From Chondrosia reniformis (taxonomy: Eukaryota > Porifera > Demospongiae > Chondrillida > Chondrillidae): DNA of 64,000 bases. The DNA lies in contig OX359190.1 of NCBI GenBank assembly GCA_947172415.1, positions 1,984,001 to 2,048,000 of the forward strand. Direction: 5' to 3'. Below, piece after piece: positions 1 through 40,040 of the stretch (positions are counted from its first letter, which is position 1; every line of letters begins with the position of its first letter). A program made the position numbers and the translations under genes. Under the pieces are notes generated by a model. The model was not told the origin of the DNA. It worked only from the letters and a program-made list of their open reading frames with translations, and did no database searches.

Positions 1-2669
1 CTTGTGATGTACTTCGCGTGGGGGAGGACTTTGAACTCTGTCGGGTAGTTCTAGTTACCTCCGGAGGGGAGGTGTCCCAGGAGGGGGTGTGGTCCTTCTC
101 TTTGGATTTACTCTTCTCAGACTTGACTGGTTTGTGTTTTTTCTTATCAAACTTCTTTTGTTTCTTCTTTGAAGACTTTCCTACAGTGATACAACGTCAT
201 ACAGGGGCTTGGAGTGGAGGGTGGAGGCTGTATAGGATCTATATGTATACACACTTGTATGTTCAGCTGATCTGGTCCAGTGTACTTTGACTGTGAAGCA
301 CACACTAACTTTATTACACAAAATTTGATACAAGCTGAGAATAGGTTTAGTAATATTCTCACCTAAAGTTAATCCATAACTTAACATAGGTACTGTCATT
401 GGATATACAGTACAACAAAATGATATAGCACTGGTTACACAAGACACATGCTAGGTGCTTCATATGGTACCTTCTTTGTGTAGTGATGATGCAATACTGG
501 CAGCACTCCCTGTGGAGCTGGTCTCCCAGTTTCCCTTCTTACTCAGAGGAGGAGCTAACGGTTCATGTTCCTTAATACCTAGCACATTTGAAGTGTATAA
601 CAGACCATCACATCACAATATTCCATAAGTATTAATTTAGTAATTCTAAAGTATGTGTAGAAGTTACATAATTCAGAATGCAAGTGAGTGTTGATCTATA
701 GTATATGTAGTGAACAGTCCATTGGTCAATAGGTACATTGCTTGCATATATTCTATACACAAGTACGTGCATGTTGTATGTGAAGGTCTATTCTGACCAT
801 GCAACTGTATGGAGGTAGACATTATTACTTTCATTGAGTGAGTCTTCATCTGGAAAAGATGCTCTTCTCTTCCCAAGAGGCGAGAGCTTGGAGGAGGAGC
901 TCAGCAGTCTTGTTCTTATCTCCTTCCTCTGCTCCTCTGTGTGCTGGGGACACTTGACTGAACATGTACACAGTCTCTTTGTCCTCTCAGACACAACTCC
1001 ACAAATTGAGTTCAATGTACTTCTTTGCTTTTCTGAGGAGAGAGAGAGAGAGAGGATTAGTAGAGAGAAATGTGCTACAATAAAAATATGGGTGGTATAA
1101 ATTTAGTGATAATGGACACATTAAATGTGTCTAGTGTTGTCTAGCTAGTGTTTTAGAGTCCTATAGATCATCATATATATATACCAGTTTTATCTCCATA
1201 TATATGTATATGTTCAGGGTTTCTTTAATTTATCTATTAAACTATAGAACTACACAATCCAATTATGTACTTAAAAATCCAATTATGTACTTAAAAATGG
1301 AACCTTAAGAGGAGATATTTGGGACATATTTTCAGATTTACTTTATTTAAGTATGGAAGGTATACAGCCAAAATATGACTTTAAGAATTTTTGTCTCATA
1401 CAAAAGTTCAACTGTATCAATCTCTTAAATGGTTTACTTTTAGTTTTAGCATAAAACACAATTGCATTGCACTGAAGTTGAAATGCTGACAAATAATTAT
1501 ATTTTTAGACAATCAAAAAGTCCCAAAGTTGGCAACCGTTAGTGGAACAGAAGTCGGCTGAAGGAAACAATTTATTTCACTTATATAGTATCATATATAC
1601 GTATGTACTAAGTTATAAAGATATACACTCACAATAGCTATACAAACATACTTTAGTCTTCTCTGTGGTTTGTGTGGGAGGGGGAGGAGGAGGAGGGGGC
1701 GGGTCTATCTTGACACTCCTCTTTGGAGTAGGTGAAGCTGTTCTGTCTTTCTCCCTGTCTCTCTCCTTGTCCTTCTTCGGCCTCTTGGAACCTGCAGTTA
1801 AGAAGGTCAGCTAGGAATGTATGCAACCAGTTGTGTGATTCATAAGTCAGATCTCTAATAGATATAATTATATTTGGGTACTTAAATTTAGTCAACTATT
1901 GCTTTCAAAATAATTAATTATGATTGGCTTTCTAATAGTAATGACTTACACGTATTTACATCATATAACATCAAATAAATACTATTTATAGTCTTCTACA
2001 GATTAAGGATGTTGAGAATGGCTGACAAGATTAGAAATTTTATACTGTATCTCCTAAAATTGCAATACATGTATACTTTGGAGAGTGTACATGTATATGT
2101 GTATATATCTTATATTCAATAAAAGTGATTGGTGGATCTCATCAAGACTGTACAACCGAGTCTCAATTATGGCCAATCTAATCCATTCCAAAGACATGAC
2201 ATCCACTACTGATGTTACAATTTATTTAAAATCTTTGTTTTATCCTTCTTGCTATTATGTGTGTGTGCAGTCTACTCCAGTGTTACCTTTCTTGTCCGGC
2301 ACATACTCCTCCCCTTCAGAGTCACTTCCCCCACTCTCAGAGTCGAGTATCCTCTGAGGTCTCTTGCTGGCCAGTCTGTTGCGACCAGTCAGTTTATTAG
2401 AATTATGCAGCCATTTATCAGATTAGGAATTTGCATTTTAACTTTTTGGAGACATTCTCTTGTCATAATGTCAAATTTCATCACGTTATTTAAGTTCTAA
2501 AGTCAAGCATTAGTTCTACTCATGACTTATGTCTCTCATCTTTCTTACCTCTTTGGTCAATGTTAGCTGGATCTGGGTCGATCAGTTCTTTGTAGTATCC
2601 CAGTTTAATAGCACGATGAAGTTCAAAGGCTACTTCTAGAAATAATTCATCTACGTTTGTAAAAACCAT
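1..2669 (-). pseudogene. ATXN7L3/Sgf11-like gene A, copy 1: zinc finger deleted
   Basis: Member of the ATXN7L3 (Sgf11) family, the subunit of the SAGA histone H2B deubiquitinase module. Remaining exons, in transcription order: 2549-2669 (DELFLEVAFELHRAIKLGYY, the Sgf11 N-terminal helix region), 2287-about 2388 (Sgf11 exon, acidic tail only), 1652-1791 (Lys-rich and poly-Pro), about 1526-1557 (remnant of the 49-nt exon), 829-1032 (SCA7 domain, CGVVSERTKRLC...CPQHTEEQR), 471-578, and <1-180 (Lys-rich C-terminal exon, cut by the window edge). About 450 bp present in copy 2 (15738-16189) are missing at 2388, which removes the Cys-x2-Cys...His-x3-Cys finger and the splice acceptor. The 49-nt exon has lost its 3' part and donor. 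I call it a pseudogene; a short SCA7-only product cannot be excluded. Confidence 0.8.
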
Positions 2670-3771
2670 AGCATATAATTATGGTAAAGCTGTATTAGTA
2701 GTGTTCGCTATATAAACATTACGAAATGATGCATACCTTAGATAGTTCTTAATGAGAATTAGGAAAAATTGCTTGATTCAACAGAAAATATGAAATAATT
2801 ATAAAATTGTACAAAAATGGTAGACTGACAAGTGGTGTATCTAACTGTTCCTGATTGACTATATGAGAAGTCCTCCATCTTTTGAAAGCAACTGAATATT
2901 ATATATGTAACGATAGGAGGAGAAATGGTGTGATAGATTATTCATACAGTACACCCTAATTTTTATGCAAAGTGGAAGTTGTGTTTATAAACAAACAAAC
3001 AATTAAAAGGTCACTAATTATCAAACTGCTGGAAGTTGTGTTTATAAACAAACAAACAAACAGGGATGGATTAGGACTTAGGACAATCACTTTTAGAAGT
3101 AAGCTTCAATATTCAAAATATTCAAAAAGATGAGATGTTTGCAAATTAATTGCAAATACCATACATTTTAGGATCGGAAATAAATTAATTTCTTAATTCC
3201 CTTTTACGTACATTATACGTAGGACCAAAAAGTGACGCATAACACATTTATGATAAACAGTAGCTTCACAAGAATGTTGGGGAACAATAGGTAACCATTA
3301 ATCACAACTCAGTCAATCCCACAAGTGTATGCATAAGGACTTTTCAATAGTGTTAAAATGAGGAAAATTTGATAGCCTGCATAAATTAAATCATTGTGGC
3401 CTTTGAAGGCTGTGCTAGCACAGTGGTATCTTAGTTGTGGGTACGTGGTCTACTTTTCTAAGACCTTTTATACGTTACTCCCTACACAATGCACATGCTA
3501 TGTAACAATCACAGCGTATACGTATATGTCAGGCCATACGGTATACAAATAATGATTCAGCAACTAACTCAATGTATCCTTTAATGGTTTATCCTTTGAC
3601 TTCTGAGTGTCTATAGAAACAGTATTAGTAACTCTTCAAATCAACCAGATCAATTCACATGTGAGTAGGTGTTGGTAGAAGGCTAATTGCATTTTGTGTT
3701 TATGGACCTCAAAAGAGGTTGAATAATTTATGTATCACCAAAATTCTCAAATATATATACGTAGACGACCA
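2670..3771. other. 5' intron of gene A copy 1, no gene seen
   Basis: About 1.1 kb of AT-rich DNA between the Sgf11 helix exon and the 5' part of gene A. It contains a tandem pair of short segments ending in (AAAC)n near 2985-3060 and short TACGTA-rich stretches. The same sequence recurs in all modules. Short open frames here are not kept between copies. Confidence 0.6.
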
Positions 3772-3876
3772 TTTTTCTAACACACTGCTTGGAAGATGTA
3801 CATAGAAACAAAAAGCTATCTAGTATAAGGAAACTCTTTGAATCTATGTACGTATACAGACAGTGTGTTAGAAAAA
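3772..3876. repeat. Inverted-repeat element (TTTTTCTAACACACTG arms), copy 1
   Basis: The left arm TTTTTCTAACACACTG is matched by the inverted right arm CAGTGTGTTAGAAAAA about 80 bp away. Copies lie at 30980-31083, 45228-45332 and 59454-59557, and a left half at 33026-33091. Module 2 has none; its equivalent stretch holds a 17-bp satellite. It looks like a miniature inverted-repeat element with no coding capacity. Confidence 0.6.
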
Positions 3877-4453: not shown

Positions 4454-7400
4454 ATGAACAAAGATAAAGTGAGTTTACTTAATTGGTCTCTTGTAAGTAA
4501 AAGATGGGCGGAGCCGCCTGGAATCGAACGGTCTGACTGCGTCTCCTGCACTCATTTAAAAAGACACAGGCTATAGATCTGAAATACTTAAAGCGTTGGG
4601 ATGAGTCTAATCGTAGAACAGATATCGCAAGTGAACCTGCATGCTCTGTCGGGACGTAGCTGGCATATCTTTACAGAGACTGTAGCTTCTGTTCGATTGG
4701 GTTTGTTTAGACTGTAGTTTTAAACCAGTCGACTATACGTATAAAGCCACAAGCGATTCATATCCTTTTAGGGGACAAGTTAGAAAGCGAGAAACTGATT
4801 CCGTAATCTTTCCATAACTGAATAGCCATTCTGTTGCTCTACTGGTGGGAATTACTTTATCACTGTATATTCGTACGTTATGAAGTTTACTAACTTGACT
4901 ACGTATGAGCCATGCATGCACGTTAAGACAAGATTTACGTTAAGAATATTTAGACAAGAAGATTTACGGTACTTACAGACCTCAAAGTGTTCTTACAATA
5001 AGCTGCTACAGAAGTTGCTCCTTCCATGTCATTCAGTTCCTCCAAACAGTAAATATTATCTTTTCTTTCTTGTCTCTAATTAGGTATTTCGAAGTGACCT
5101 CCTGACAGCTGGAGGAGGTCACTTCCTAAAATCAACTGAAATACCAGAAATGCCTAAAGGAACCAGATTTGGCAAAGCTGTTGTACACAATCAAAGAGTA
5201 TTCGTCTGCGGAGAGCAGAGAGGAGACCAGAGAGTTCAGATTTACGATGTTAAAACCAATAAATGGTCAACACTACCTCCATCTCCGTATTCTCTCAGTG
5301 GAGCCACCATCATAAATGATCAGTTAACTCTGATAGGAGGTTGGGACACTCGTGGCTATCATACAAGCAAGCTAGTGACATGGACAGGTGAAGAATGGTT
5401 AGAGCTATATCCTCCAATGCACACTGCCCAAACCGATCCAGGTGTTCTTGCTATTGGAGACTTAGTAATTGTGTCTGGAGGATTTGGAGCAAATGGCAAA
5501 GTAGACACAATTGAATTCCTGGATATTAAGAATAGAAAGTGGATCCAGTCGAATATGAAGCTTCCTCGACCATTATCAGGACACCACATGGCATTGTGTG
5601 GTGAATACATTTACATCTACTACTACAATGGATATTTTTGGAGAATGAATAAGAAGAACTTTATGGCTTCACTTACAACAAATGATGTACATTACTGGGA
5701 ACAGTTCAAGAATGCACCATGGGACAGTTCACTTTTACAATACAGCACCCTACCAGTCATAGTAGGTCCAAATGGAATCTTTATTTTCGAGAAGAAGAAG
5801 TGGACACAAATTAGTGAAGAAACGTCTTATTTCAACACTTGTACGGCTTCCCTCAACGGAACTACTTTTCTCACCATTGGAGGAGGAGGAGGACATTATC
5901 AGACAAGAGCTGTACAGTACGATATTGCAGTTGAGGTTAGTAACTTATTTAATTACAAAACATTACATTAAAGTATTACAAGTCTTGTTAACATTTGTTG
6001 TGCGCTTCGCGTGCACTTTCTCCTTCAAATAGAAACATTAGAAGGTTTTATTTCCTTCGTTAGAGTCACCTAACTTGTGCGCTCAGTGTACACGAAGCGC
6101 GTGTCAATGTTAACAAGACTTGTATTGTTTTAAGTTCTCGTAGAGTGTGTTTTACGAGCGCTCTCAGGAGTTTAAGTGGTAACTTGATTCCACTAACGAA
6201 GACTGTTAAGTCTTCTTGCTCTTAGCATTTGAAGGAGAGTGTGTACGTTTTATAAAAGTGCCAAGTTTTAAAACGGTTTCTTGTCGCGCTACACATGTAA
6301 TTTAAGAGAAAGTAGTTTTATAGAAGTGCTAGCGCTAAGTTGTAAATCGGCATTTAGACATATGGAATTAATTTCTCCTCCTTTGTACGTTCATTTGATT
6401 AGTTATAACTATGCAGTAGTGGTGGTTGTAGACACAATTAATAAACTACTTCCTCAACAGTAAATTGCTATACAAAGTTTATTTGCATTTGGCAGTCTAA
6501 AGTCGGCCATTTTACCAGTGAAAAATAGTCGTCAGCGTCTATAAAAGATAAATAAAGGCAAATACGTAGATTTGTCAGTGAATGTTTTGACAATTATTCA
6601 TATGTATTCATATAATTATATTAGGATTTTAAGTATACGTAACTATAGGATTGTTCCTTGTTCCTCAATTGTTGACATTTTACTTAACAGCCAAAAGTAG
6701 GACAGCTAGAACTACTACAGCTAGGTGCTAAGTTTTCAATTTTACAGCTAGGTACTACGTATACAGCTAGGTACTGTGTATACAGCTAGGTACTACATAT
6801 ACAGCTAGGTACTGCGTATACGAATATTGACTTATTGGTTCCAACAATGACTTGAGATGTGGTTGTTTCATACAGTATAATTGAACCATAACTTTAAATA
6901 GTTTGAATACTTTTTTATAAAATGCTATTCCAAAGCTGTAGTGTACGTAGGTGTATAAGAGTATGTATAACCTGTATTCTTAGGAGGAAGACACTAGCTT
7001 GAAAGAGGGAGACACTAGCTTGGAGGAGGGAGACTCTAGCTTGAAGGAGGGAGACACTGGCTTGAAGGAGGGAGACACTAGCTTGAAGGAGGGAGACGCT
7101 AGCTTGAAGGAGGGAGACGCTAGCTTGAAGGAGGGAGACGCTAGCTTGAAGGAGGGAGACGCTAGCTTGGAGGAGGGAGACATTAGCTTGGAGGATGAAT
7201 TTATCATTTTCAAGGTAAGTTTGTTGAAAGTTTATTTTGATATTTTTCAACTGATATATTGTCATGTTGTAGGAGAAGGAAATGAGGGAGAAGCAGACAT
7301 TGATTGATCAAGTAGAGAGATTGAAGCAATCTGAAAGAGAGTACGAACTAAAGGTCAAACAACTGATGGAGAGAAACACTCAGTTGGAGGTACAGTATCC

Positions 7401-10400
7401 TACTGTAACACCTCCCACACCTCTGCTGATTTAACCTGGCTGGATGTATTAACACTACCTGCACACAACATCACTAGTTATCCACCAGTTTACACCTAAT
7501 AGAGTAAGGATTACTTCTGTAACTGCTTCCAACTTATCTTTTGATGGTTCGTCTTTTGACTTTTTGGTAAATATTTTGTTGACAAAAGGTTTACCAAACT
7601 GTGTCTTTAGATGTCAAAATATGAACCATCCAAAAGATACAGTACATATGGGACATACAGACACTTTGTTAAATAGATAGGTCAATTGAAGTCTCATCCT
7701 GACTGGTGAAAAGTACATTGTGGACTAGAGAGCCGATAGTGCACTGACATTACACATTATTTACAAATTTAATGAGTTTCACCTCTTGACTTTGGATTAT
7801 AGGAATCTATAGCAAGTTAACACATCTCATGTATGTACATATATATATTGTATGTTACCACTGCTAGTCTGTTGGGAATGCCTAATTTCCAATATATATT
7901 CAGTATCTTAAAATCTGGTGCTTAATGTGTCCACCTTTTTAATGTACTTTCTACGATGCAATTTTGAATTAACTGTGTAGTTTAATTCTCTTTTACAAGA
8001 GTATTTGAAATTTGTTTTAATCTTTCTACAAATGCTACATCTCACTTCCATTGATATATGCTCTGTTGTGTGTATATACAGACGGAAGTAGCTGATTTGA
8101 GCAGCAAAGGAACAGAGACACAACAGAAAATCATTGAACGTCTTGAGGTATGAAGACACTGGAGAGGATTTATAATGTGTTATTTGACTTACAGGCTCTT
8201 AATACTGTAGGAGAAGATAGCTGAACTGACTAGAGAACTGAGAGACACTCAGAAAGACAATCTACACCTGAAAGAACGTAATACAGATTTGAAGGAGTTC
8301 AACAGCCAGTCTACTGTGAGTGTCACTATTGACATGTAATGAATATGGTCTTTGATCAACCCTTTTTGATGTAGGAGAAGATGGCTGAACTAACTAGAGA
8401 ACTGAGAGACACTCAGAAAGACAATCTACACCTGAAAGAACGTAATACAGATTTAATGGAGTCCAATAGCCAGTCTACTGTGAGAGGCACTATTGACATG
8501 TAATGAATATGGTCTTTGATCAACTTTTTGATGTAGGAGAAGATGGCTGAACTAACTAGAGAACTGAGAGACACTCAGAAAGACAATCTACACCTGAAAG
8601 AACGTAATACAGATTTAATGGAGTCCAATAGCCAGTCTACTGTGAGAGGCACTATTGACATGTAATGAATATGGTCTTTGATCAACTTTTTGATGTAGGA
8701 GAAGATGGATGAACTAACTAGAGAACTGAGAGACACTCAGAAAGACAATCTACACCTGAAAGAACGTAATACAGATTTAACGGAGTCCAACAGCCAGTCT
8801 ACTGTGAGTGTCACTATTGACATGTAATGAATATGGTCTTTGATCAACCCTTTTTGATGTACGTAGGAGAAGATGGCTGAACTAACTAGAGAACTGAGAG
8901 ACACTCAGAAAGACAATCTACACCTGAAAGAACGTAATACAGATTTAATGGAGTCCAATAGCCAGTCTACTGTGAGAGGCACTATTGACATGTAATGAAT
9001 ATGGTCTTTGATCAACCCTTTTTGATGTAGGAGAAGATGGCTGAACTAACTAGAGAACTGAGAGACACTCAGAAAGACAATCTACACCTGAAAGAACGTA
9101 ATGCAGATTTGAAGGAGTCCAACATTGAATTAAAGGAATCCATTTCAGAATTGAAGAAAACACATTCGGATTTAAGCAGCCAGACTACTGTAAGTATCAC
9201 TGTTGACATGTTATCCATACATGTTACATATAGTTACTTATCCAATCTTCTTATTGTAGGAGAAGATGGATGAACTGACTAGAGAACTGAGAGACACTCA
9301 AAGGAATGTAGACAAACTAGAATGTTCCAAAGTACACCTGGAAGAGCGTATCAATGACTTAAATAAAACTAATTCTCTTCTGGAAGAAGGCAACTCTGAA
9401 TTGAAGGTAATCCATCATACAGTATATATTCATACTTATCACTGTCACTTATCTCTATATACATACATACAAAAAATTCTACATTTTATTACATACATGT
9501 TAATTTTATGGCATGTTTATCTAAAATAATAGCACTGTGTATATATGTGTACATTACATATGTATGTATATAAATATGAGATACATTCACAACTAGTAAC
9601 TGATTGACAAGACATCTATGTACTGCAATGTAGACTAGACTACAGCAGCAACAGCAAAGTACAGAAAGAGTTGCAGAGTTACAAGAGGAGAACATCAAAC
9701 TGAGAGAAGAGAAGGTATTTCATTTCACTATTACTATACTCGGGAGTGATTATGGATACTTCCTTTTAACATGTTTTTCTCAACTACCATAAATGGTAAT
9801 AATTTGGGACAACTCATCTAGCGTTGCCAACCTTAATTATGTCCCAAATTATCCTATGCTACACTATATGGACATACATAGTTACTTACTCCTGCAGAAT
9901 CACTGGATCTGCAATATACACCTTTTAGTTAAACCAGCTGTGCATTATGAAATAATAATATAGGTACAGTCTGTCTACATTGATAGTAAGCGTGATATAT
10001 GAATATCATTATTGAACAAGAAATGGTCTCTCTTTCAAACACCTTGTATCAGCTGTGGAATAGACTGTTACAGATTTTTATAGCTTTTCTTCTAATATTT
10101 AGAAAACTGTTCATTCTTCTTATTTTTACTTGTGTAGAGCTTTCTTGAAGGTTCCTTGAAAGAAACTCAAGAGAGAAGGAAAGCTTTGGAGGAAGAAAAG
10201 AATAAAACTGAAAAGCAAGCTGAAGAGTTGAGGAGTAACATGTTGGGAAAGGTTGATAGATTTGGTGCCATGTTAGAAGAAATGAAGAAATCATTAGACG
10301 TGTTGGAAGGTTAGCTTTATTTTCCAAAGAAGCGTAGACTTGTAAATTGAGATATTTGATTCATTTCCACTATTTAGAAAAGCAAAGCAAAGGAGAATTA

Positions 10401-11218
10401 ATGAGGTGAGTTTTATGTAAATCTTTAATGTAGAATATTGGATGCAGTTGGTCCTGATAAAGTAGTTAATGAAGATGTTGTTGTTATAACTTATTTTTGT
10501 CCCTGAAAACCTTATTACAAAGCATCCAACAATAAGTAGTGTGAAATGTGTCTTTAAATGCTCACCAATTTGTTGCAAAGATGATGCATCTATAAAAGAG
10601 GGAGCATTTTAACCATCTACACCGTAGAATCATTTCCATGCAGTACCAAAAGTACTTTATTGCCTTAGAATGGACATTTTGCTTTGCGGCCTAAACAACC
10701 AACCATCCAGTACTTGTCCCCCTCCCCCATGATTCATAGTATATTATGTCCTATTAATTAGAAGTCTTATAGACTAGAATTCTGTATCATATTTGTCCTT
10801 AAAATATTCTTCAGAATATTCTACAATAAATTACATGTGTCCGTAGACACTTCTAAAAGGTGCATGATGTACATATCTAAGAATTAAGTATTTTATTGCT
10901 TTCCACAGCACTGAACTCACAACCAGACACATGGATGTGCTGCTGAGAAATGTCATTGATAAAGTTCCTCAAAAATGGGAGGAAATTGCAATTTGCCTTC
11001 AATTTGAGGACAATAAGATTACATCACTTAAGTACCCGAAGGTGAACAATAAGGACCTTTGTAAAGAGATGCTGAGATCTTGGCTGAGACAAGATAAAGA
11101 TACTGGTAGCCGGCCAAGGACCTTGAAAACCTTGTACAATGCACTTGTGGATCGAGACTGTAAGCCTCAGGCAGAGAAACTTGTAGAAGAAGTGAAGGGA
11201 CACGTGGAGAAGGAATGA
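4454..11218 (+). CDS. Gene B copy 1: Kelch - heptad repeat - coiled coil - Death domain protein
   Basis: Sixteen exons join in frame to about 900 residues: 4454-4468 (MNKDK), 5084-5935 (Kelch), 6984-7214 (about 10 SLKEGDT heptads), 7273-7389, 8082-8147, 8211-8315, 8375-8479, 8537-8641, 8699-8803, 8867-8971, 9031-9189, 9260-9406, 9634-9714, 10138-10309, 10378-10405, 10909-11218. All junctions are GT..AG, and every junction up to exon 14 is phase 0. The Kelch exon (residues 6-289) shows repeated blades such as VQIYDVKTNKWSTLP, LTLIGG, LVIVSGG and FLDIKNRKWIQ. Residues about 290-790 are Glu/Lys/Leu-rich coiled coil. The last ~95 residues are a Death domain (PQKWEEIAICLQF...MLRSWLRQ...LKTLYNALVDRDC). 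There is no signal peptide or membrane segment, so it is probably cytosolic. I know no named protein with this order; a recognition or adaptor role is inference. Confidence 0.85.
5977..6124. repeat. Intronic inverted repeat after the Kelch exon, copy 1
   Basis: Arms of about 38 bp (ACAAGTCTTGTTAACATT at the left, its inverse near 6107-6124) flank a core of about 70 bp. It lies about 40 bp after the Kelch exon donor. Equivalent hairpins occur at 20501-20642, 34299-34440, 48004-48143 and 61612-61753. The arms include GCGCTTCGCG, unusually GC-rich for this locus. Confidence 0.6.
6706..6822 (+). repeat. TACAGCTAGGTACTACATA minisatellite, copy 1
   Basis: Tandem repeats of about 19 bp with consensus TACAGCTAGGTACTACATA in the intron just upstream of the heptad exon. 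About 6 units here, more in copies 3 and 4. Each unit contains CAGCTAG, which looks like a 3' splice site. Confidence 0.8.
6984..7214 (+). repeat. Coding 21-bp repeat (SLKEGDT heptads), copy 1
   Basis: This single exon of gene B encodes about ten 7-residue units (S/T-L-K-E-G-D-T/A) from a 21-bp tandem repeat, then DEFIIFK before donor GTAAGT. It begins and ends in phase 0. One Leu per heptad suggests a weak coiled coil or an extended spacer. The antisense strand is also open because of the 21-bp period, but no gene is implied there. Confidence 0.85.
7535..7640. repeat. Intronic hairpin element (TATCTTTTGATGGTTCGTC arms), copy 1
   Basis: Inverted arms of about 40-60 bp with the ends TATCTTTTGATGGTTCGTC and GATGAACCATCCAAAAGATA. 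The left arm has a small internal deletion here. The fullest copy is at 21605-21729. Others lie at 36094-36207 and 63337-63453, and a right arm only at 50393-50469. It is miniature-inverted-repeat-like and non-coding. Confidence 0.65.
8211..9189 (+). repeat. Tandem 164-bp exon-plus-intron array in gene B copy 1
   Basis: Six consecutive exons start at 8211, 8375, 8537, 8699, 8867 and 9031 (spacing 162-168 bp). Each encodes EK(I/M)AELTRELRDTQKDNLHL or a near variant. The first five are 105 nt, the last 159 nt. Exon and intron are both near-identical, so this is recent tandem amplification of a phase-0 coiled-coil cassette. Confidence 0.88.
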
Positions 11219-12135
11219 CAGTTAGTTGATGTTAAGTGTGATGTTGTGTATATATATATATATATAGTCGGAGCATACAAGGGGGCAGTACCCTCTACTG
11301 GCTATCAAAGATATATACAATTTTAACTGTTAAAAAAAATGTCAAGTAAAGATATATTAATTAAAAATAACAACAGTACCTTATATGGTAATGGATAATG
11401 CTTACAATAAAAACTGTACAATATAAAATGGCCGTACCATTGTGTAGTGAAATGGGTCTGATATCGTGAGACTATTCCACACCAATGCCTATATAGATGG
11501 GCTATATAGTAGACCCAGCACTTTATGACTTGTGCCTCCTCTTCCTCCCATTATTGTGGAAGTGGAATCATTAATTGTGTACAGTTTAACAGTTCAATGA
11601 TAAACTGTATAGTTTTGTACAATATCATATAAGTCTTCTTTTATAATTTCTTCATTTAACAATATTTCTCATCCTATTTACAGTATTACAAAGGAGAACA
11701 ACTTTGCAGTCTTTTAACAAACTATTGGATTACAGAAAGAAATGAAACAATAATTAGAAGTAGTCCTGACAATCTCTAGCTTCTTAATCATGTAATTGGA
11801 CTATTTGTATCGTTGTATTTCAAAGCAAATTAGTGTTCCTTTAATATATCACTTGGTTGTTAGAGTTATGACAATATTGTATAAGTTAGTGCCATCTGCA
11901 GCTGAAATTTATTTATTCTATCATTACGTCATTCAGTCTATTATTAAATTTTGTAAACACTGAACTTGGAGATTGCACGTTATGTCAATTCAATTGAAGT
12001 TTATTGATTATAAGCATTATTCTGTGACTATTTATATGCATGTATGTGTGCAGGAGTAAATTTGTGAATTAAGTGGTTTAAGTACTGTGAGGTTTCAAGC
12101 AAAGAGGGTGACGAACTGTTCCACTTGAAAAGCAC
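11219..12135. other. Spacer between gene B and gene C, copy 1
   Basis: The 3' UTR of gene B has a poly(A) signal AATAAA at 11406, followed by AT-rich DNA and the upstream region of gene C. An in-frame TGA at 12109 precedes the gene C start. No further gene is seen. Confidence 0.6.
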
Positions 12136-12870
12136 ATGATGACTGGAGCTGCAGATCGTGAAGAATCAGTAGGACTCCGACTAACTGCTGTGACTACTAA
12201 ACTTTGCAGTTTACCTAGTTTTCCACTGTTCGTTGGTTATCTCGTTTTCACTGCATCTGCTCGTCCTATTTGGAAGGTGGCTGCAACGGTACCCGTGGAT
12301 CTGAAGACTCCATTAATATTGCACAATTTGACTTGCTTTGTGGCGAGTGTGTACACGTTCGTTGCTGGAGTGTACGCATTGACAACAACACCGTCTTTGC
12401 TCACTGTTTCCGAAGGAAACTCGAACGTTATCCACGTCTTATATGCATATTGGATAAGCAAGGTGATTGAACTCTTGGATACCGTATTTATTATCTTTCG
12501 AGACAAGAAACGGCAGCTAACGGCGCTTCATGTTTTTCATCACTCGAGTATGCTGCTCCTTGCAGATTTCGCTTACAGCAGGACGCGTTGGACTCCAATA
12601 TCAGTCGGTTTCACCATTAATTCCTTTGTACACATAGTCATGTACGGCTATTACAACCTTGCAACCTTCTACAGCCTCAGCTCAGCATGGTGGAAGAGAG
12701 GAGTGACACAGCTGCAGATTGTCCAGTTTTTGTTTGTTATTTATGTGGGAGTTTATGGCTACGTGAACTACGGGTATTGTATTTATTCCATTATTTATCC
12801 CGTAGCAATCTTATTATTCTTTATAAACTTTTACTATAATGCCTACTTATCCAAAAGATTCAAGAAGTAA
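12136..12870 (+). CDS. Gene C copy 1: ELO-family very-long-chain fatty acid elongase, intact
   Basis: A single-exon reading frame of 244 residues. ELO enzymes catalyse the condensation step (malonyl-CoA plus acyl-CoA) of fatty acid elongation in the ER membrane. Family motifs appear in order: KVIELLDT (109-116), the His box HVFHH (132-136), NSFVHIVMYGYY (162-173) and TQLQIVQF (191-198). Several hydrophobic membrane segments are present, and the C-terminus is basic (SKRFKK). An in-frame TGA at 12109 supports the start at 12136. It is shorter than usual for ELOVL proteins (about 265-315), mainly at the N-terminus. It lacks introns, unlike genes A and B. Substrate preference cannot be read from the sequence. 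Confidence 0.88.
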   Translation: MMTGAADREESVGLRLTAVTTKLCSLPSFPLFVGYLVFTASARPIWKVAATVPVDLKTPLILHNLTCFVASVYTFVAGVYALTTTPSLLTVSEGNSNVIHVLYAYWISKVIELLDTVFIIFRDKKRQLTALHVFHHSSMLLLADFAYSRTRWTPISVGFTINSFVHIVMYGYYNLATFYSLSSAWWKRGVTQLQIVQFLFVIYVGVYGYVNYGYCIYSIIYPVAILLFFINFYYNAYLSKRFKK

Positions 12871-13183: not shown

Positions 13184-16100
13184 CTAACAAATGAATGGCA
13201 TGTCAGGCATGTCTTGTGATGTACTTCGTGTGGGGGAGGACTTTGAACTCTGTCGGGTAATTCTAGTTACCTCCGGAGGGGAGGTGTCCCAGGAGGGGGT
13301 GTGGTCCTTCTCTTTGGATTTACTCTTCTCAGACTTGACTGGTTTGTGTTTCTTCTTATCAATCTTCTTTTGTTTCTTCTTTGAAGACTTTCCTACAGTG
13401 ATACAACGTCATACAGGGGCTTGGAGTGGAGGGTGGAGGCTGTATAGGCTCTATATGTATACACACTTGTGTGTTTAGCTGATCTGGTCCAGTGCACTTT
13501 GACTGTGAAGTACACACTAACTTTATTACACAAAATTTGATACAAGCTGAGAATAGGTTTAGTAATATTCTCCTAAAGTCAATCCATAACTTAATATAGA
13601 TACTGTCATTGGATATACAGTACAATAAAATAATATAGCACTGGTTACACAAGACATGCTAGGTGCTTCATATTGTACCTTCTTTGTGTAGTGATGATGC
13701 AATACTGGCAGCACTCCCTGTAGAGCTGGTCTCCCAGTTTCCTTTCTTATTCAGAGGAGGAGCTAACGGTTCATGTTCCTTAATACCTAGCACATTTGAA
13801 GTGTATAACAGACCATCACATCACAATAATCCATAAAGTATTAATTTAGTAATTCTAAAGTATGTGCAGATCAAGTTATTATAATTCAGAATGCAAGTGA
13901 GTGTTGATCTATAGTATATGTAGTGAACAGTCCATTGGTCAATAGGTACATTGCTTGCATATATTCTATATACAAGTACGTGCATGTTGTATGTGAAGGT
14001 CTATTCTGACCAACTGTATGGAGGTAGACATTATTACTTTCATTGAGTGAGTCTTCATCTTGAAAAGATGCTCTTCTCTTCCCAAGAGGTGAGAGCTTGG
14101 AGGAGGAGCTCAGCAGTCTTGTTCTTATCTCCTTCCTCTGCTCCTCTGTGTGCTGGGGACACTTGACTGAACGTGTACACAGTCTCTTTGTCCTCTCAGA
14201 CACAACTCCACAAATTGAGTTCAATGTACTTCTTTGCTTTTCTGAGGAGAGAGAGAGAGAGGATTAGTAGAGACAAAAATGTCAACAAAAAAACAGAAAT
14301 GTACTACACTAAAATATAGGCAGTATAAATTTAGTGATAATGGACACATTAAATGCGTCTAGTGTTGTCTAGTGTTTTAGAGTCCTATAGATCATAATAG
14401 ATATACCAGTTATATCTCCATATATATGTATATGTTCAGTGTTTCTTTAATTTATCAAGTAATCTATAGAACTACACAATCCAAGAGCTGGACATTTGTG
14501 ACATATTTTCAAATTTTACTTTTAAGTATGGAAGGTATACATCCAAAATATGACTTTAAAAGAATTTTTCGTCTTATACAAAAGTTCAACTGTATCAATT
14601 TCTTAAATGGTTTAGTTTTAGCATAAAATAAAATTGGATTGCACTGGAGTTGAAATGCTTGACAAACGATTATAGACATTCAAAAAGTCCAAAAAGGTCA
14701 CGATCAATGTAAGACTAACTTGTACTTACAAACGATTATATTCAAAAAGTCCAAAAAATCAACTATTTCTGATCAATGTAAAGCTATAGCTACAGCTGGA
14801 AGGAAGTCTTAATTTATCATATTTATACTGTTTCTATGGCAACATGTACTTACTGACCTTGAGGAAATGTTAGGAAGTTGGCAACCGTTAGTGGAACAGA
14901 AGTCGGCTGAAGGAAACAATTCATTTCACTTACATAGTTATTGTATAAATATCATATATTATACGTATGTACTAAGTTATAAAAATATACACTCACAATA
15001 GCTATACAAACATACTTTAGTCTTCTCTGTGGTTTGTGTGGGAGGGGGAGGAGGAGGAGGGGGCGGGTCTATCTTGACACTCCTCTTTGGAGTAGGTGAA
15101 GCTGTTCTGTCTTTCTCCCTGTCTCTCTCCCTGTCCTTCTTCGGCCTCTTGGAACCTGCAGTTAAGAAGGTCAGCTAGGAATGTATGCAGCCAGTTGTGT
15201 GATTCATAAGTCAGATCTCTAATAGATATGATTACTTTATTTAAGTGTACTTAAATTTAGTAAACTAATGCTTTTAAAATAATTATGCTTGGCTTTCAAA
15301 TAGTATTTACATCTTATAACATCAAATAAATACTATTTATAGTCTTTTACAGATTAAAGTTGTTGAGAATAGCTGACAAGATTAGAAATTTTATACTGTA
15401 TCTCCTAAAATTGCAATACATGTATACCTTGGAGAGTGCACATGTATATGTGTATATATCTTATATTCAATAAAAGTGATTGGCGGATCTCATCAAGACT
15501 ATACAACCGAGTCTCAATTATGGCCAATCTAATCCATTCCAAAGACATGACATTCACTACTGATGTTACAAAATATTTGAAATCTTTGTTTTATCCTTCT
15601 TGCTATTATGTGTGTGTGCAGTCTACTCCAGTGTTACCTTTCTTGTCCGGCACATACTCCTCCCCTTCAGAGTCACTTTCCCCACTCTCAGAGTCGAGTA
15701 TCCTCTGAGGTCTCTTGCTGGCCAGTCTGTTGCGACCAAGTCCCATGCACTTCTCAAGATGAGGAGCAAACTTTGGTACTCCGATGGTCACACTGCACTT
15801 TGGACATCTGCAGGTCAGGTTGGGCTTTTTGAGATCCTGTTTAGTGTTACCAAATACATCCACAACATCAGCTGCAGAAAGCACTATGTCTGCAAGGAGT
15901 GGGTGGATCAAAGGATCTACTTGTACATACAACATAACATACATACCCAATCTAGTGTTACCTACCATAAATCAGCCATTTTATTTCTGCATCCATATAG
16001 TTTTATAAATACAAACAATTCACTTTCCCCATCACTCCAATTCAAACTAGCCAATTGCAAGCTGTTCTAATGGTAAACACTTTATTAACACTTGTGGTTG

Positions 16101-19000: not shown

Positions 19001-22000
19001 ATGAACGAAGATAAAGTGAGTTTACTTAATTGTCTCTTGTAAGTAAAAGATGGGCGGAGCCGCTCGGAATCGAACGGTCTGACTGCGTCTCCTACACTCA
19101 TTTAAAAAGACACAGGCTATAGATCTGAAATACTTAAAGCGTTGGGATGAGTCTAATGGTAGAACAGATATCGCAAGTGAACCTGCTCTGTAGGGACGTA
19201 GCTGGCATATCTTTACAGAGACTGTAGTTTCTGTTCGATTGGGTTTGTTTAGACTGTAGTTTTAAACCAGTCAACTATAAAGGGAAGATTCATATCCTTT
19301 TAGGGGACAAGTTAGAAAGCGAGAAACTGATTCGTAATCTTTTCCATAACTGAATAACCATTCTGTTGCTCTACTGGTGGGAATTACTTTATCACTGTGT
19401 ATTCGTACGTTATGAAGTTTACTAACTTGACTACGTATGAGCCATGCATGCACGTTGAGACAAGATTTACGTTAAGAGTATTTAGACAAGAAGATTTACG
19501 GCACTTACAGACCTCAAAGTGTTCTTACAATAAGCTGCTACAGAACTTGCTCCTTCCATGTCATTCAGTTCCTCCAAACAGTAAATATTATCTTTTCTTT
19601 CTTGTCTCTAATTAGGTATTTCGAAGTGACCTCCTGACAGCTGGAGGAGGTCACGTCCTCAAATCAACTGAAATACCGGAAATGCCTATTGGAATCCGTT
19701 TTGGCAAAGCAAAAGCTGTTGTACACAATCAAAGAGTATTTGTCTGCGAAGACCAGAGAGTTCAGATTTACGACGTTAAAACCAATAAATGGTCAACACT
19801 ACCTCCATCTCCGTATTCTCGCAGTCGAGCCACCATCATAAAAGATCAGTTAACTCTGATAGGAGGTTGGGACATTCGTAACACTACTACAAACAAGCTA
19901 CTGACATGGACAGGTGAAGAATGGTTAGAGCTATATCCTCCAATGCACACTGCCCAATCCATTCCAGGAGTTCTTGCTATTGGAGACTTAGTAATTGTGT
20001 CTGGAGGAGATGGAGCAGTAGACACAATTGAATTCCTGGATATTAACAAAAGAATATGGATCCAGTCGAATCTGAAACTTCCTCAACCATTAACAGGACA
20101 CCTCATGGCATTGTGTGGTGAATACATTTACATCTACGACTACAATGGATATTTTAGGAGAATGAATAAGAAGAATTTTATGGCTTCACTTACAACAAAT
20201 GATGTACATCACTGGGAAGAGCTCGAGAAGGCACCAGAGGACAGTTCACTATTACAATACAGCACACTACCAGTCATAGTAGGTCCATTTGGAATCTTCA
20301 TTTTCGAGAAGAAGAAGTGGACACAAATTAGTAGAGAAACGTCTTATGACTTCAATTGTACGGCTTCCCTCAACGCAACTACTTTTCTCACCATTGGAGG
20401 AAGTAGAGGAGGACAATTACAGACAAGAGCTGTACAGTACGATATTGCAGTTAAGGTTAGTAACTTATTTAATTACAAAACATTACATTTAAGTATTAAA
20501 AAGTCTTGTTAATATTCGTTGCGCGCTGCGCGTGCACTTTCTCCTTCAAATAGAAACATTAGAAGGTTTAATTTCCTTCGTTAGAGTCACCTAACTTGTA
20601 CCCTCAGTGTACATGAAGCGCGTGTCAATGTTAACAAGACTTGTATTGCTTTAATGTTCTCGTACAAGTGTGTTCTACGAGCGCTCTCACGAGTTTAAGT
20701 GTTAACTTGATTCCACTAACGAAGACTGTTAAGTCTTCTTGCTCTTAGCATTTAAAGGAGAGTGTGTACGTTTTATAAAAGTGCCAAGTTTTAAAACAGT
20801 TTCTTGTCGCGCTACACATGTAATTTAAGAGAAAGTAGTTTTATAGAAGTGCTAAGTTGTAAATCGGCATTTAGACCTACACATGGAATATATATGTATT
20901 CATATAATTATATTAGGATTTTAAGTATACGTAACTATAGGATTGTTCCTTGTTCCTCAATTGTAAGTTGACAAATTACTTTACAGTCCAAAAATAGGAC
21001 AGCTAGGAACTACGTATACAGCTAGGTACTACGTATACAGCTAGGTACTACATATACAGCTAGGTACTACGTATACAGCTAGGTACTACATATACAGCTA
21101 GGTACTACATATACAGCTAGGTACTGTGCATACGAATATTGACTTATTGACTCCTACAATGACTTGAGATGTGTTTGTTTCATACAGTATAATTGAACCA
21201 TAATAGTTTGAATACTTTTTATAAAATGCTTTTCCAAAGTTGTTGTGTACGTAGGTGTATAAGAGTATTAACATGTATTCTTAGGAGGGAGACACTAGCT
21301 TTTATTGACTTTGATATTTTTTACTGATATATTGTCATGTTGTAGGAGAAGGAAATGAAGAAGCAGACATTGATTGATCAAGTAGAGAGATTGAAGCAAT
21401 CTGAAAGAGAGTACGAGCTAAAGGTCAAAGAACTGATGGAGAGAAACACTCAGTTGAAGGTACGGTATCCTACTGCAACATCTCCCACACCTCTGCTGAT
21501 TTAACCTGGCTGGATGTATTAACACTGCCTGCACACAACATCACTAGTTATCCACCAGTTTACACCTAATAGAGTAAGGATTACTTCTGTAACTGCTTCC
21601 AACTTATCTCTTGATGGTTCGTCTTTTGACTTTTTGGAAATCTAAAGACGCAGTTTGGTAAATATTTTGTTGACAAAAGGTTTACCAAACTGTGTCTTTA
21701 GATGTCAAAAGATGAACCATCCAAAAGATACAGTACATATGGGACATACAGACACTTTGTTAAATAGATAGGCCAATTGAAGTCTCATCCTGACTGGTGA
21801 AAGTACGTTGTGGACTAGAGAGCCGATAGTGCACTGACATTACAGATTATTTGCAAATTTAATGAGTTTCACCTCTTGACTTTGGATCAAAGCAAGTTAA
21901 CACATCTCATGTATGTACAGAATATATATTTGCTAGTCTGTTGGGAATGCCTAATTTCAAATATATATTCAGAATCTTAAGATCTAGTACTTAATGTGTC

Positions 22001-24474
22001 CACCTTTTTAATGTACTTTCTATCATGCAATTTTGAATTAACTGTATAGTTTTTGAGTAAGAGTATTTGAAATTTACTTAAAGCTTTCTACAAATCCGAA
22101 TCACTTCCATTGATATATGTTCTGTTGTGTGTATATACAGACAGAAGTAGCTGATTTGAGCAGCAAAGGAACAGAGACACAACAGAAATACATTGGACGT
22201 CTTGAGGTATGAAGACACTGGAGAGGATTTATAATGTGTTATTTGATTTACAGGCTCTTAAAACTGTAGGGGAGGATAGCTGAACTGACCAGAGAACTGA
22301 GAACTCAGAAAGACGATCTGAAAGAGCGTATTACTGATTTGAAGGAGTCCAACACTCATCTAAAGGAATCTAACATTGAATTAAAGGAATCCATTTCAGA
22401 ATTCAGGAGAAAAAATTCAGATTTGAAGGAGTCCAACAGCCAGTCTACTGTGAGTGTCACTGTTGACATGTAGTGAATATGTTATTTGATCAACCCTTTT
22501 ATATTCTTATATTGATGTAGGAGAGGATAGCTGAACTGACCAGAGAACTGAGAGACGCTCAAAGAAATATAGCTGAAGTAACCAGAGAATTGAAAGATAC
22601 TCAAACAAATGTAGACAAATTAGAAGTTTCCAAAGTGTACCTGGAAGAACGTATCAATGACTTAAAGAAAACCAATTCTCTTTTGGAAGAAGGCAATTCT
22701 GATTTGAAGGTAATCCATTATTTTGACATGTAGATTTCTTATTTTCATATACGTATATAGTGATAGGTGTATTAATGAGCTGAATGAACACTCTATGTAA
22801 CATGTGAATGTGTTATTGCCTATTAATCTTAGATGGCACTTTGTACGTATGTATGTATATATATGTCAGACACATTCACAAGTAGTAACTGATTGACAAG
22901 ACATCTATGTACTGCAATGTAGACTAGACTACAGCAGCAACAGCAAAGTACAGAAAGAGTTTCAGAGTTACAAGAGGAGAACATCAAACTGAGAGAAGAG
23001 AAGGTATTTCATTTCACTATTACTATACTCGGGAGTGATTATGGGTACTTCCTTTTAACATGTTTTTCTCAACTACCATAAAGGGTAGAGTGTAATAATT
23101 TAGGACAACTCATCTAACTTTGCTAACCTTAATTATGTCCCAAATTATCCTATGCTACACTATATGTACATACATAGTTACTTACTCCTGCAGAATCACT
23201 GGATCTGCAATATACACCTTTTAGTTAAACCAGCTGTGCATTATGAAATAATAATATATGTGCAGTCTGTCTCCATTGATAGTAAGCGTGATATATGAAT
23301 ATCATTATTGAACAAGAAATGGTCTCTCTTTCAAACACCTTGTATCATCTGTGGAATAGACTGTTACAGATTTTTATAGCTTTTCTTCTAATATTTAGAA
23401 AACTGTTCATTCTTCTTATTTTTACTTGTGTAGAGCTTTCTTGAAGGTTCCTTGAAAGAATCTGAAGAGAGAAGGAAAGCTTTGGAAGAAGAGAAAGCTA
23501 AAACTGAAAAGCAAGCTGAAGAGTTGAGGAGTGACATGTTGGGAAAGGTTGAAGGATTTGGTGCCATGTTAGAAGAAATGAAGAGATCATTAGACATGTT
23601 GGAAGGTTAGCTTTATTTTCCAAAGAAGCGTAGACTTGTAAATTGAGATATTTGATTCATTTCCACTATTTAGAAAAGCAAAGCAAAGGAGAATTAATGA
23701 GGTGAGTTTTATGTAAATCTTTAATGTAGAATATTGGATGCAGTTGGTCCTGATAAAGTAGTTAATGAGGATGTTGTTGTTATAACAGTTGTCCCTGAAA
23801 ACCTTATTCCAAAACATCCAACAGTTAAGTTGTGTGAAAGATGATGCATCTATAAAAGAGGGAGCATTTTAACCATCTATACCGTAGAATCATCCCCATG
23901 CTGTACCAAAAGTACTTTATTGCCTTAGAATGGACATTTTGCTTTGTGGCCTAAACAACCAACCTGCCCCCCCTTCCCCATGATTCATAGTATATTATGT
24001 CCTATTACTTAGAAGTCTTATAGACTAGAATTCTGTATCATATTTGTCCTTAAAATATTCTTCAGAATATTCTACAATAAATTACATGTGTCCATGGATA
24101 CTCATAAGATTATTAAAAGGTGCATGATGTACATATCTAAGAATTATTTTATTGCTTTCCACAGCACTGAACTTACAACCAGACACATGGATGTGCTGCT
24201 GAGAAATGTCATTGATAAAGTTCCTCAGAAATGGGAGGAAATTGCAATTTGCCTTCAATTTGAGGACAATAAGATTACATCACTTAAGGACCCGAGGGTG
24301 AACAATAAGGACCTTTGTAAAAAGATGCTGAGATCTTGGCTGAGACAAGATAAAGATACTGGTAGCCGGCCAAGGACCTTGAAAACCTTGTACAATGCAC
24401 TTGTGGATCGAGACTGTAGGCCTCAGGCAGAGAAACTTGTAGAAGAAGTGAAGGGACATATGCAGAAGGAATGA
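19001..24474 (+). CDS. Gene B copy 2: Kelch - coiled coil - Death domain, heptad exon lost
   Basis: Exons 19001-19015, 19616-20455 (Kelch), 21346-21459, 22141-22206, 22270-22449, 22521-22709, 22923-23003, 23434-23605, 23674-23701 and 24165-24474 give about 664 residues, the shortest copy. The heptad exon survives only as a remnant (21285-about 21302: acceptor, then GAG GGA GAC ACT AGC, then deletion of the rest and the donor). Because neighbouring exons are all phase 0, skipping it leaves the frame open from Kelch to Death domain. Only two AELTREL-type exons are present (180 and 189 nt), against seven in copies 1 and 3. The Kelch loops differ, for example a short GGDGAVDTI where copy 1 has GGFGANGKVDTI. 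The Death domain is class 1 (SLKDPRVNNKDLC). Confidence 0.82.
20501..20642. repeat. Intronic inverted repeat after the Kelch exon, copy 2
   Basis: Same element as 5977-6124, with arms AAGTCTTGTTAA... and ...TTAACAAGACTT. Confidence 0.55.
20999..21134 (+). repeat. TACAGCTAGGTACTACATA minisatellite, copy 2
   Basis: About seven 19-bp units upstream of the remnant heptad exon. It is retained although the exon it precedes is gone. Confidence 0.8.
21605..21729. repeat. Intronic hairpin element, fullest copy
   Basis: Both arms are nearly complete: ATGGTTCGTCTTTTGAC...AGTTTGGTAAA at the left, and TTTACCAAACTGTGTCTTTA...GATGAACCAT at the right, with a short AT-rich loop. The arms are about 50 bp with few mismatches. 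Confidence 0.7.
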
Positions 24475-39300: not shown

Positions 39301-40040
39301 TAATAACGTTTTTTATCTAAAAGAACCTGTACTAAACCACTTATGATTAGTTCGTGTAATACACTCGACGGTCAATTTTTAGAGAACTTTGGCTCTTGCT
39401 AATTCCTTCACCAGTAAGTCTTCCTACTTTAATTGTACTCAAATTGTTGGCTCACCATTTGAAGGGTCTGCCAGACCTCCTCTGCAGTCCCTGATCTCTG
39501 ACTAATGTACGTAAATGGAGTACATACGTATATTAAAGAGGGTCCCTTCTCTAATTTTATTCATAATATTCATAGAGTATGTCTTATAGACTAGAATTTT
39601 GTGTTATTTTATCCTTATAATATTCACTCAGAAATTCTACAATAGATTACATGAAATGTGTCCGTAGACACTCCTAAAAGTAGCATGATGTACGTATCTA
39701 CAAATTGAGTTATTTTATTACTTTCCACAGCACTGAACTCACAACCAGACACATGGATGTGTTGCTAAGAAAGGTCATTGATAAAGTTCCTCAGAAATGG
39801 GAGGAAATTGCAATTTGCCTTCAGTTTGAGGACAATAAGATAGCGTCACTTAAGGATGGAAATTCAAAAATTGAAGAACGATGTAGAGCCATGCTGAGAT
39901 CTTGGCTGAGACAAGATAAAGATACTGGTAGCCGGCCAAGGACCTTGAAAACCTTGTACAATGCACTTGTGGATCGAGACTGTAAACCTGAGGCACTTAA
40001 ACTTGTAGAAGAAGTGAAGGGACACGTGGAGAAGGAATGA
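33399..40040 (+). CDS. Gene B copy 3: Kelch - heptad repeat - coiled coil - Death domain, promoter and exon 1 deleted
   Basis: Exons 33399-34253 (Kelch), 35450-35764 (about 14 heptads), 35828-35944, 36645-36710, 36774-36878, 36938-37042, 37102-37206, 37265-37369, 37429-37533, 37593-37772, 37845-38012, 38226-38306, 38782-38932, 39011-39038 and 39731-40040 are open and in frame. The usual MNxDK first exon and the shared promoter are missing because of a deletion ending near 33092-33097. Translation could begin at the in-exon ATG 33465 (MPIGTSYGKAVV), giving about 909 residues. The Kelch loops differ (SPYSSSHSRSG, GGFGADGRDVDTI). The Death domain is class 2 (SLKDGNSKIEERC). Five 105-nt coiled-coil exons are nearly identical. 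The protein-coding part is intact; expression is uncertain. Confidence 0.75.
34299..34440. repeat. Intronic inverted repeat after the Kelch exon, copy 3
   Basis: Same element as 5977-6124; arms include GTCTTGTTAAC and its inverse. Confidence 0.55.
35039..35291 (+). repeat. TACAGCTAGGTACTACATA minisatellite, copy 3
   Basis: About 13 units of 19 bp, with internal two- and three-unit super-repeats (the order TACTACGTATG / TGCTACATATA / TACTGTGTATA recurs). Confidence 0.82.
35450..35764 (+). repeat. Coding 21-bp repeat (SLKEGDT heptads), copy 3
   Basis: A 105-codon exon with about 14 heptads, then LKNEFIIFK and donor GTACGT. It has variants SSLKEGD and SSLREGD. Confidence 0.85.
36774..37772 (+). 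repeat. Tandem 164-bp exon-plus-intron array in gene B copy 3
   Basis: Exon starts at 36774, 36938, 37102, 37265, 37429 and 37593 (spacing 163-164 bp). Each exon is 105 nt except the last (180 nt). It is as homogeneous as the array in copy 1. Confidence 0.88.
38420..38700. mobile_element. Candidate small inserted element in a gene B intron, copy 3
   Basis: About 280 bp that copies 1, 2 and 4 do not have; they share another sequence here. It contains inverted stretches (CATTGTATAACTGTTATACA against TATAGTTATACAATG) and a GC-richer core (CTCCGCCCCTAGGC). It has the look of a miniature DNA element; exact ends are not resolved. Confidence 0.4.

Follow-up and report, generated by a model that had tools for sequence, protein, structure and literature searches.

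A tandem sponge gene family predicted to join a rapidly evolving Kelch propeller face to a Death domain

Introduction

The HNWD proteins of the fungus Podospora anserina, including HET-D and HET-E, are described as a multigene family of propeller sensors with reshuffled paralogs and a cell-death output (PMC1805685, PMC2873952). In the report on HET-E, the positively selected residues lie in the D-A and B-C loops, at the top of the WD40 propeller (PMC1805685). Here, we describe a family from the sponge Chondrosia reniformis that resembles these proteins in its propeller sensor head, its multigene organization and the apparent reshuffling of its paralogs. Its prototype, gene B, occupies positions 4454-11218 of a 64,000-nucleotide window (the whole stretch analyzed, C2:1984001-2048000) within a searched genome of 117.38 Mb in 15 contigs. 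We consider it likely, with a probability of about 0.72, that the intact genes of the family encode intracellular receptors that couple a fast-evolving Kelch face to a death-fold signal. The two systems differ in construction: the HNWD proteins are fungal and combine a WD40 propeller of nearly identical repeat units with a NACHT NTPase, whereas gene B has a single-exon Kelch head and a Death tail, with no NACHT match and no NTPase in the genes of the window, and its output is deduced from the Death domain. In the best reading of our comparison, HET-E/HNWD would nevertheless be the nearest functional parallel, and the sponge family appears to evolve like their propellers.

The nearest animal parallel is the expansion of DED-TRADD-N-WD40 proteins in Branchiostoma. 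This expansion and that of TRADD-N proteins in Amphimedon are reported to comprise 13-129 and 357 proteins, respectively, and the Branchiostoma proteins are described as having a low-complexity (flexible) linker and a highly variable propeller (PMC8195603). Both resemble the gene B family as lineage-specific animal expansions with a death-fold module. In the Branchiostoma proteins, DED-TRADD-N is N-terminal and WD40 C-terminal, whereas in gene B an N-terminal Kelch propeller is followed by a heptad spacer, a coiled coil and a C-terminal Death domain; neither DED nor TRADD-N has a Pfam match in the gene B protein. An earlier interpretation of the window, made from its letters alone (the sequence-only reading), had proposed a new type of recognition protein. 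Because Branchiostoma proteins that combine a death fold with a hypervariable propeller have been published (PMC8195603), the principle is not new. The Kelch-Death architecture itself is a different matter: we found no description of it in searches of an open-access library, most subscription papers being outside their scope. Not met in those searches were the Kelch-spacer-coiled-coil-Death form, the sharing of its head with a Roc-COR-like chassis, and the scale of the family.

Sponge NLRs, NACHT-LRR proteins with a Death or CARD domain described in Dysidea avara, also form large families (PMC12909245), from which gene B differs in having no Pfam match to NACHT, NB-ARC or LRR in its protein at E 0.01. 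In one group of Roco proteins, Kelch or WD40 repeats are reported to flank Roc-COR (PMC6320773), and brown-algal LRR-ROCO candidate receptors are described as products of exon shuffling and diversifying selection (PMC11378527). The likeness of our family to ROCO proteins (DAPK1, LRRK) is confined to a Roc-COR-like exon at two sister loci, which differ from them in also carrying exons for CARD, ZU5 and Death; the window genes are without Roc-COR. The propellers of KLHL, Keap1, KLHDC2 and LZTR1 proteins share the fold of the Kelch head, but gene B has no BTB or BACK match and possesses a Death tail and loops that are hypervariable among paralogs.

Results

Exon layout and predicted product of gene B

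Gene B can be read as 16 exons, all with GT-AG borders, and its predicted product of 900 residues bears out the layout put forward in the sequence-only reading, namely a single-exon Kelch domain, a 7-residue repeat spacer, a coiled coil and a C-terminal Death domain. The exons are as follows:

4454-4468, plus strand: exon 1, encoding MNKDK, with a phase-0 donor
5084-5935, plus strand: exon 2, Kelch propeller of 284 residues, six blades by the strands of the structure model
6984-7214, plus strand: exon 3, heptad-repeat spacer, lacking Met and with a TAG in frame at its acceptor
7273-10405, plus strand: exons 4-15, coiled coil, with tandemly duplicated 105-nt exons among them
10909-11218, plus strand: exon 16, Death domain and stop

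In the protein, the Kelch propeller spans residues 1-289 (five of them from exon 1), the heptad spacer residues 290-366, the coiled coil residues 367-797 and the Death domain residues 798-900.

Scanned alone, the Kelch and Death exons each score above their Pfam cut-offs (27.3 bits against 22.6 for Death). When the full spliced protein was scanned, as the sequence-only reading had suggested, Kelch_1 exceeded its cut-off, and PF24681 and Death (21.0 bits) narrowly missed theirs. The kelch repeats close a propeller, and although two of the five structure models failed, the best model of the Kelch head is confident and has strong fold matches, the closest of which include the kelch domains of KLHL, Keap1, LZTR1 and KLHDC proteins. 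For the C-terminus, the best fold matches of the Death exon are death domains, albeit from a weak model; weak sequence matches to FADD were also found. The coiled coil shows a strong 3.5-residue periodicity (z 9.2). An LHH nuclease match of about 40 residues within it (27.6 bits, cut-off 23.3) was rejected as an effect of composition. By eye, the 900-residue model shows neither a signal peptide nor a membrane anchor, so the product is predicted to be intracellular.

The heptad exon links the two ends of the gene. In 19 of the 20 copies with a recognizable heptad exon (the exception being L028), the in-frame codon preceding the exon is the TAG of the splice acceptor and the exon contains no Met, so that it can be translated only if spliced to an upstream exon; despite the acceptor stop, it stays open for up to about 410 codons. 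Among the coding exons found upstream on the same strand, the nearest one with a phase-0 donor is the Kelch exon, and this donor matches the phase-0 acceptor of the heptad exon. The exon order is preserved, where the exons are present, in the 22 copies compared, and 15 of 23 copies have a match to exon 1 with no more than 4 mismatches in the 700 nt that precede the Kelch exon. From these features of the sequence, we infer that Kelch and Death are probably spliced into one mRNA.

Selection on one face of the propeller

In a propeller blade of four strands, one face bears the B-C and D-A loops and the other the A-B and C-D loops. We compared these loops among the 18 intact Kelch exons; the codon analyses leave out broken exons, 5 of the 23 for Kelch and 2 of the 20 for Death. 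Mean nonsynonymous (dN) and synonymous (dS) divergence of the whole Kelch exon are 0.113 and 0.118 (ratio 0.96), and dN/dS is 0.32-0.36 for the Death exon and 0.26 and 0.27 for the coiled-coil exons E13 and E14, which are free of stops in 21 and 11 copies, respectively. Across all 153 pairs of Kelch exons, dN/dS (omega) is 1.74 in the BC and DA loops, 0.51 in the strands and 0.99 in the AB and CD loops; the corresponding values for seven disjoint pairs are 1.45, 0.59 and 0.71.

Site models localize the signal further. Comparing M2a with M1a, twice the log-likelihood difference (2dlnL) is 353 for the Kelch exon, with 10% of sites at omega 7.4, and about 0 for the Death exon. The same comparison on the seven disjoint Kelch pairs, which needs only the pairing as a tree, gives 2dlnL 139 with 9.6% of sites at omega 7.8. 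Sixteen of the 21 selected codons fall in BC or DA loops (16/93 codons in BC/DA, 0/41 in AB/CD and 5/148 elsewhere; Fisher 3e-5), and three others lie at loop edges (87, 138 and an insertion after 139). Indels follow a similar distribution, with 57 of 65 indel columns within BC or DA loops.

Variation among database proteins points to the same face. A search with the Kelch exon found 141 proteins, 120 of which were listed, all at least 58% identical; dropping 11 shorter than 250 residues left 109, and 261 of the 284 positions had enough sequences to score. The BC/DA loops contain 27 of the 30 most variable positions, which cover all 12 of these loops, the AB/CD loops contain none, and the remaining three lie at the edges of BC2 and BC3. 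Entropy averages 1.30 bits in BC/DA, 0.74 in AB/CD and 0.52 in the strands. The best matches in the protein collection, for this exon and for the Roc-COR-like exon described below, possibly represent another assembly version or haplotype.

Thus, the face formed by the BC and DA loops is under diversifying selection, and the strands, the coiled coil and the Death domain are under purifying selection. The site-specific selection and the clustering of variable positions agree with the sensor role suggested for the Kelch head from the letters alone. Selection of the HNWD type on D-A and B-C loops is therefore present in the Kelch heads, as shared behavior and not as membership of that family.

Tandem array and copy number

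The genome contains at least 103 close Kelch copies, mostly on C2 at 0.77-4.0 Mb. This and the following counts are lower bounds, as 137 of 264 candidates were scored, and they exclude two broken fragments at C2:6.91 Mb as well as Kelch cousins of 33-39% identity on C1, C4, C6, C7 and C11-C14. As tail markers, we used coiled-coil exon 4, coiled-coil exon 14 and Death, all downstream of Kelch: 26 of the 103 copies are followed by all three and 30 by at least one. Twenty-two of these 30 form an unbroken run at C2 1.87-2.19 Mb, 21 of them with all three markers, and the five or more tandem occurrences first proposed thus grow to 22 copies in a row, some of them broken. A simpler coordinate count of Kelch followed by any Death match (40/103) was dropped in favor of the three-marker count, because near 1.3-1.4 Mb the Death exons adjoin CARD-like exons of another chassis or of other genes. 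Copies have between 2 and 57 heptads in the spacer and between 0 and 12 coiled-coil exons that share one start pattern; reach therefore differs between paralogs.

Within the window, gene B is followed by four further copies:

19616-20455, plus strand: second copy, Kelch exon
24165-24474, plus strand: second copy, Death exon
33399-34253, plus strand: third copy, Kelch exon
35450-35764, plus strand: third copy, heptad exon, 12 units counted
39731-40040, plus strand: third copy, Death exon
47077-47958, plus strand: fourth copy, Kelch exon
49213-50010, plus strand: fourth copy, heptad exon, 34 units counted
53963-54269, plus strand: fourth copy, Death exon
60718-61566, plus strand: fifth copy (L033), Kelch exon, its tail lying past the window end
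12112-12870, plus strand; 13886-14263, minus strand; 15606-15971, minus strand: unrelated genes of the block (ELO, SCA7, Sgf11), with repeats elsewhere in the window

The second copy has no recognizable heptad exon (20455-21346), although its Kelch and Death exons are open. The blocks, of about 13 kb, contain ELO elongase-like open reading frames (ORFs) at three places, and zinc-finger exons of SCA7 and of Sgf11 each occur at two. Since these unrelated genes recur with the blocks, multi-gene blocks were duplicated together with the receptor gene.

Outside the array, two coiled-coil and Death tails without a listed Kelch head lie at G000:C10:5179114-5196527 (minus strand), where the exon-4 match falls inside ORFs of about 300 residues. 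The copy at 2.82 Mb (L020, 123-677) carries different coiled-coil repeats, of the QQSSERVAELQEENIKLK type, before the same Death domain. On C7 at 6.09 Mb (L045, 4061-4441), a CARD-like ORF with its own Met (23.8 bits, cut-off 23.9) follows a 35%-identical Kelch cousin by about 3 kb, and the genome-wide CARD search has a match in the same cluster, at 6036029.

Exchange between heads and tails

In the 14 copies that are intact at both ends, each alignment rejects the tree of the other end (approximately unbiased test, 9.5e-46 for the Kelch alignment on the Death tree and 1.2e-7 for the converse). Head identity and tail markers are likewise decoupled: at 3.04-3.09 Mb, four genes whose heads share only 62-65% identity with that of gene B carry the same tail markers, whereas at least 30 copies with heads at least 75% identical lack all three. 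Given this conflict and decoupling, exchange of heads and tails among copies is the simplest reading of the sequences, with gene conversion or unequal crossing-over as the likely source of new combinations.

W1, the first window copy, and L040 differ by only 2.1% in intron 1, next to the Kelch exon, although the tree separates their Kelch exons by about 0.11 substitutions per site; this suggests exchange right beside the exon. Five other copy pairs differ by 5 to 34% in this intron, with no single pattern.

The same head on a Roc-COR-like chassis

Two loci on the same chromosome, L043 and L044, have 76-77% identical Kelch heads, and in both the Kelch donor is followed by the phase-0 acceptor of an exon of about 780 residues. 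This exon contains the motifs GGSRVGKTS (P-loop), DTGGQ and VGTH, and matches Roc (20.3 bits, cut-off 27) and COR-A (18.6 bits, cut-off 35.3) below threshold but in the right order; it has no sequence match in the PDB. At least 48 proteins among the matches listed from the protein collection are at least 57% identical to it. Downstream lie a 9-residue repeat and a sub-threshold CARD-like exon, followed in L044 by ZU5 and a second CARD, both above cut-off, and by Death (46 bits). The Kelch, Roc-COR-like, CARD, ZU5 and Death exons of these loci would form a putative single chassis.

As the same Kelch exon precedes the Roc-COR-like exon, the head is common to at least two chassis. The sequence-only reading had proposed a layout lacking a nucleotide-binding domain. 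That holds for the window genes, which are without one, but not for their close relatives, which seem to place a P-loop exon after the same head.

In L043, one Kelch exon is followed by two tandem Roc-COR-like exons, at 5529-7850 and 1511-3862 on the minus strand of the locus. Both have a phase-0 acceptor of their own, so that alternative use is possible. At 926-1266, the locus contains a coding minisatellite of 12.6 units of 27 nt, encoding the 9-residue repeat STDPRGRDI and variants.

Discussion

Since the predicted binding face changes far faster than the rest of the protein, the genes are likely a sensor family for intruders or non-self. Keap1 and KLHL kelch domains bind ligands through the corresponding face. 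By analogy with the families to which its domains belong, each varied Kelch face may bind one of many varying target molecules, which could be microbial, symbiont or conspecific non-self molecules, and the spacer and coiled coil would set reach and oligomeric state. Binding of a target would then cluster the coiled-coil tails and their Death domains, which might nucleate a death-fold signal by recruiting a FADD- or RAIDD-like adaptor. Ligand, output and an immune or self-recognition role are what we infer from this combination of domains, and the present signature is the same for recognition of pathogens, symbionts and colony mates.

Several observations weigh against a receptor family of this kind, beginning with the sub-threshold Death match of the full-length protein. 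When the disjoint pairs are tested in a simple pairwise way for omega above 1, p is only 0.02, and the other face is not quiet: omega in its AB/CD loops is 0.99 in all pairs and 0.71 in disjoint pairs, and its loop CD3 has dN 0.186 and dS 0.010. Sites 14 and 98, two of those selected, are in strands. The loop borders were hand-drawn from DSSP on a predicted model after a first variability string had been seen, with judgment needed for blade 5 and strand D3; the site models are purpose-written code run from a single start with no PAML cross-check, and recombination can inflate the tree-based model. The Death exon is short (about 100 codons), which lowers the power of its test, and the trees of heads and tails, estimated with FastTree, contain several weak nodes. 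Moreover, the broken exons (5/23 Kelch, 2/20 Death examined) mean that part of the array is decaying. These broken copies, together with the whole-exon Kelch ratio and the AB/CD loops both near 1, would suit a recently amplified array that drifts toward pseudogenes under relaxed constraint, its loops varying because they are unimportant. Yet relaxation alone does not push omega above 1, as seen in the site class at 7-8; strands, coiled coil and Death are under purifying selection, and 18 of 23 Kelch exons are intact. We regard such drift as very improbable and reject it on the dN/dS of the Kelch, Death and coiled-coil exons and on both site-model runs. The 8 of 23 copies with no exon-1 match within 700 nt upstream also count against our gene model. 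Kelch and Death exons could be separate neighboring genes kept adjacent by whole-block duplication, given that the block also carries unrelated genes (ELO, SCA7/Sgf11), but in nearly all copies the heptad exon is unreadable without splicing, although it stays open for up to about 410 codons, phase 0 is shared at its junction with Kelch and the order is conserved, which makes separate transcripts hardly credible.

Many KLHL, Keap1, LZTR1 and KLHDC proteins are ubiquitin-ligase adaptors. With these among its closest folds, the Kelch head might belong to a substrate adaptor, a degradation or inhibitor protein engaged in an arms race, whose Death domain serves only for interaction. We consider this improbable, as BTB, BACK and F-box are absent among the 12 Pfam families matched by the 900-residue protein (E 0.01). 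Allorecognition is a rather better candidate: the heads would read conspecific self and non-self labels, and the Death tail would trigger rejection or cell death at colony fusion, as in het-d/het-e. The genes are clustered, head and tail trees conflict, and the selected positions, like those reported for HET-E (PMC1805685), are found in D-A and B-C loops at the top of the propeller. Pathogen or symbiont sensing predicts the same signature, however, and allorecognition in particular remains on balance unlikely. Within the preferred reading of intracellular receptors, a more specific proposal may be made tentatively, at somewhat below even odds: a germline repertoire of about 100 Kelch heads with a hypervariable, antigen-binding-like face on interchangeable chassis, either the length-variable spacer, coiled coil and Death or the Roc-COR GTPase with CARD, ZU5 and Death, in which exchange between heads and tails makes new receptors.

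With such a family, an early-branching animal would have a recognition repertoire based on the Kelch propeller instead of LRR, Ig or SRCR domains. The family also suggests a repeated origin of hypervariable propeller faces with death outputs, in fungi, amphioxus and sponge. Variable face and spacer are each one exon and the signaling tail is a fixed exon chain, making all of them testable, and the mapped locus, at about 0.77-4.0 Mb on C2, allows a direct test of how sponges tell self, symbiont and intruder apart, a long-standing question. If the interpretation is true, the family would be an animal counterpart of the fungal HNWD and plant NLR repertoires, and the locus a candidate for the long-sought site of sponge allorecognition or symbiont discrimination.

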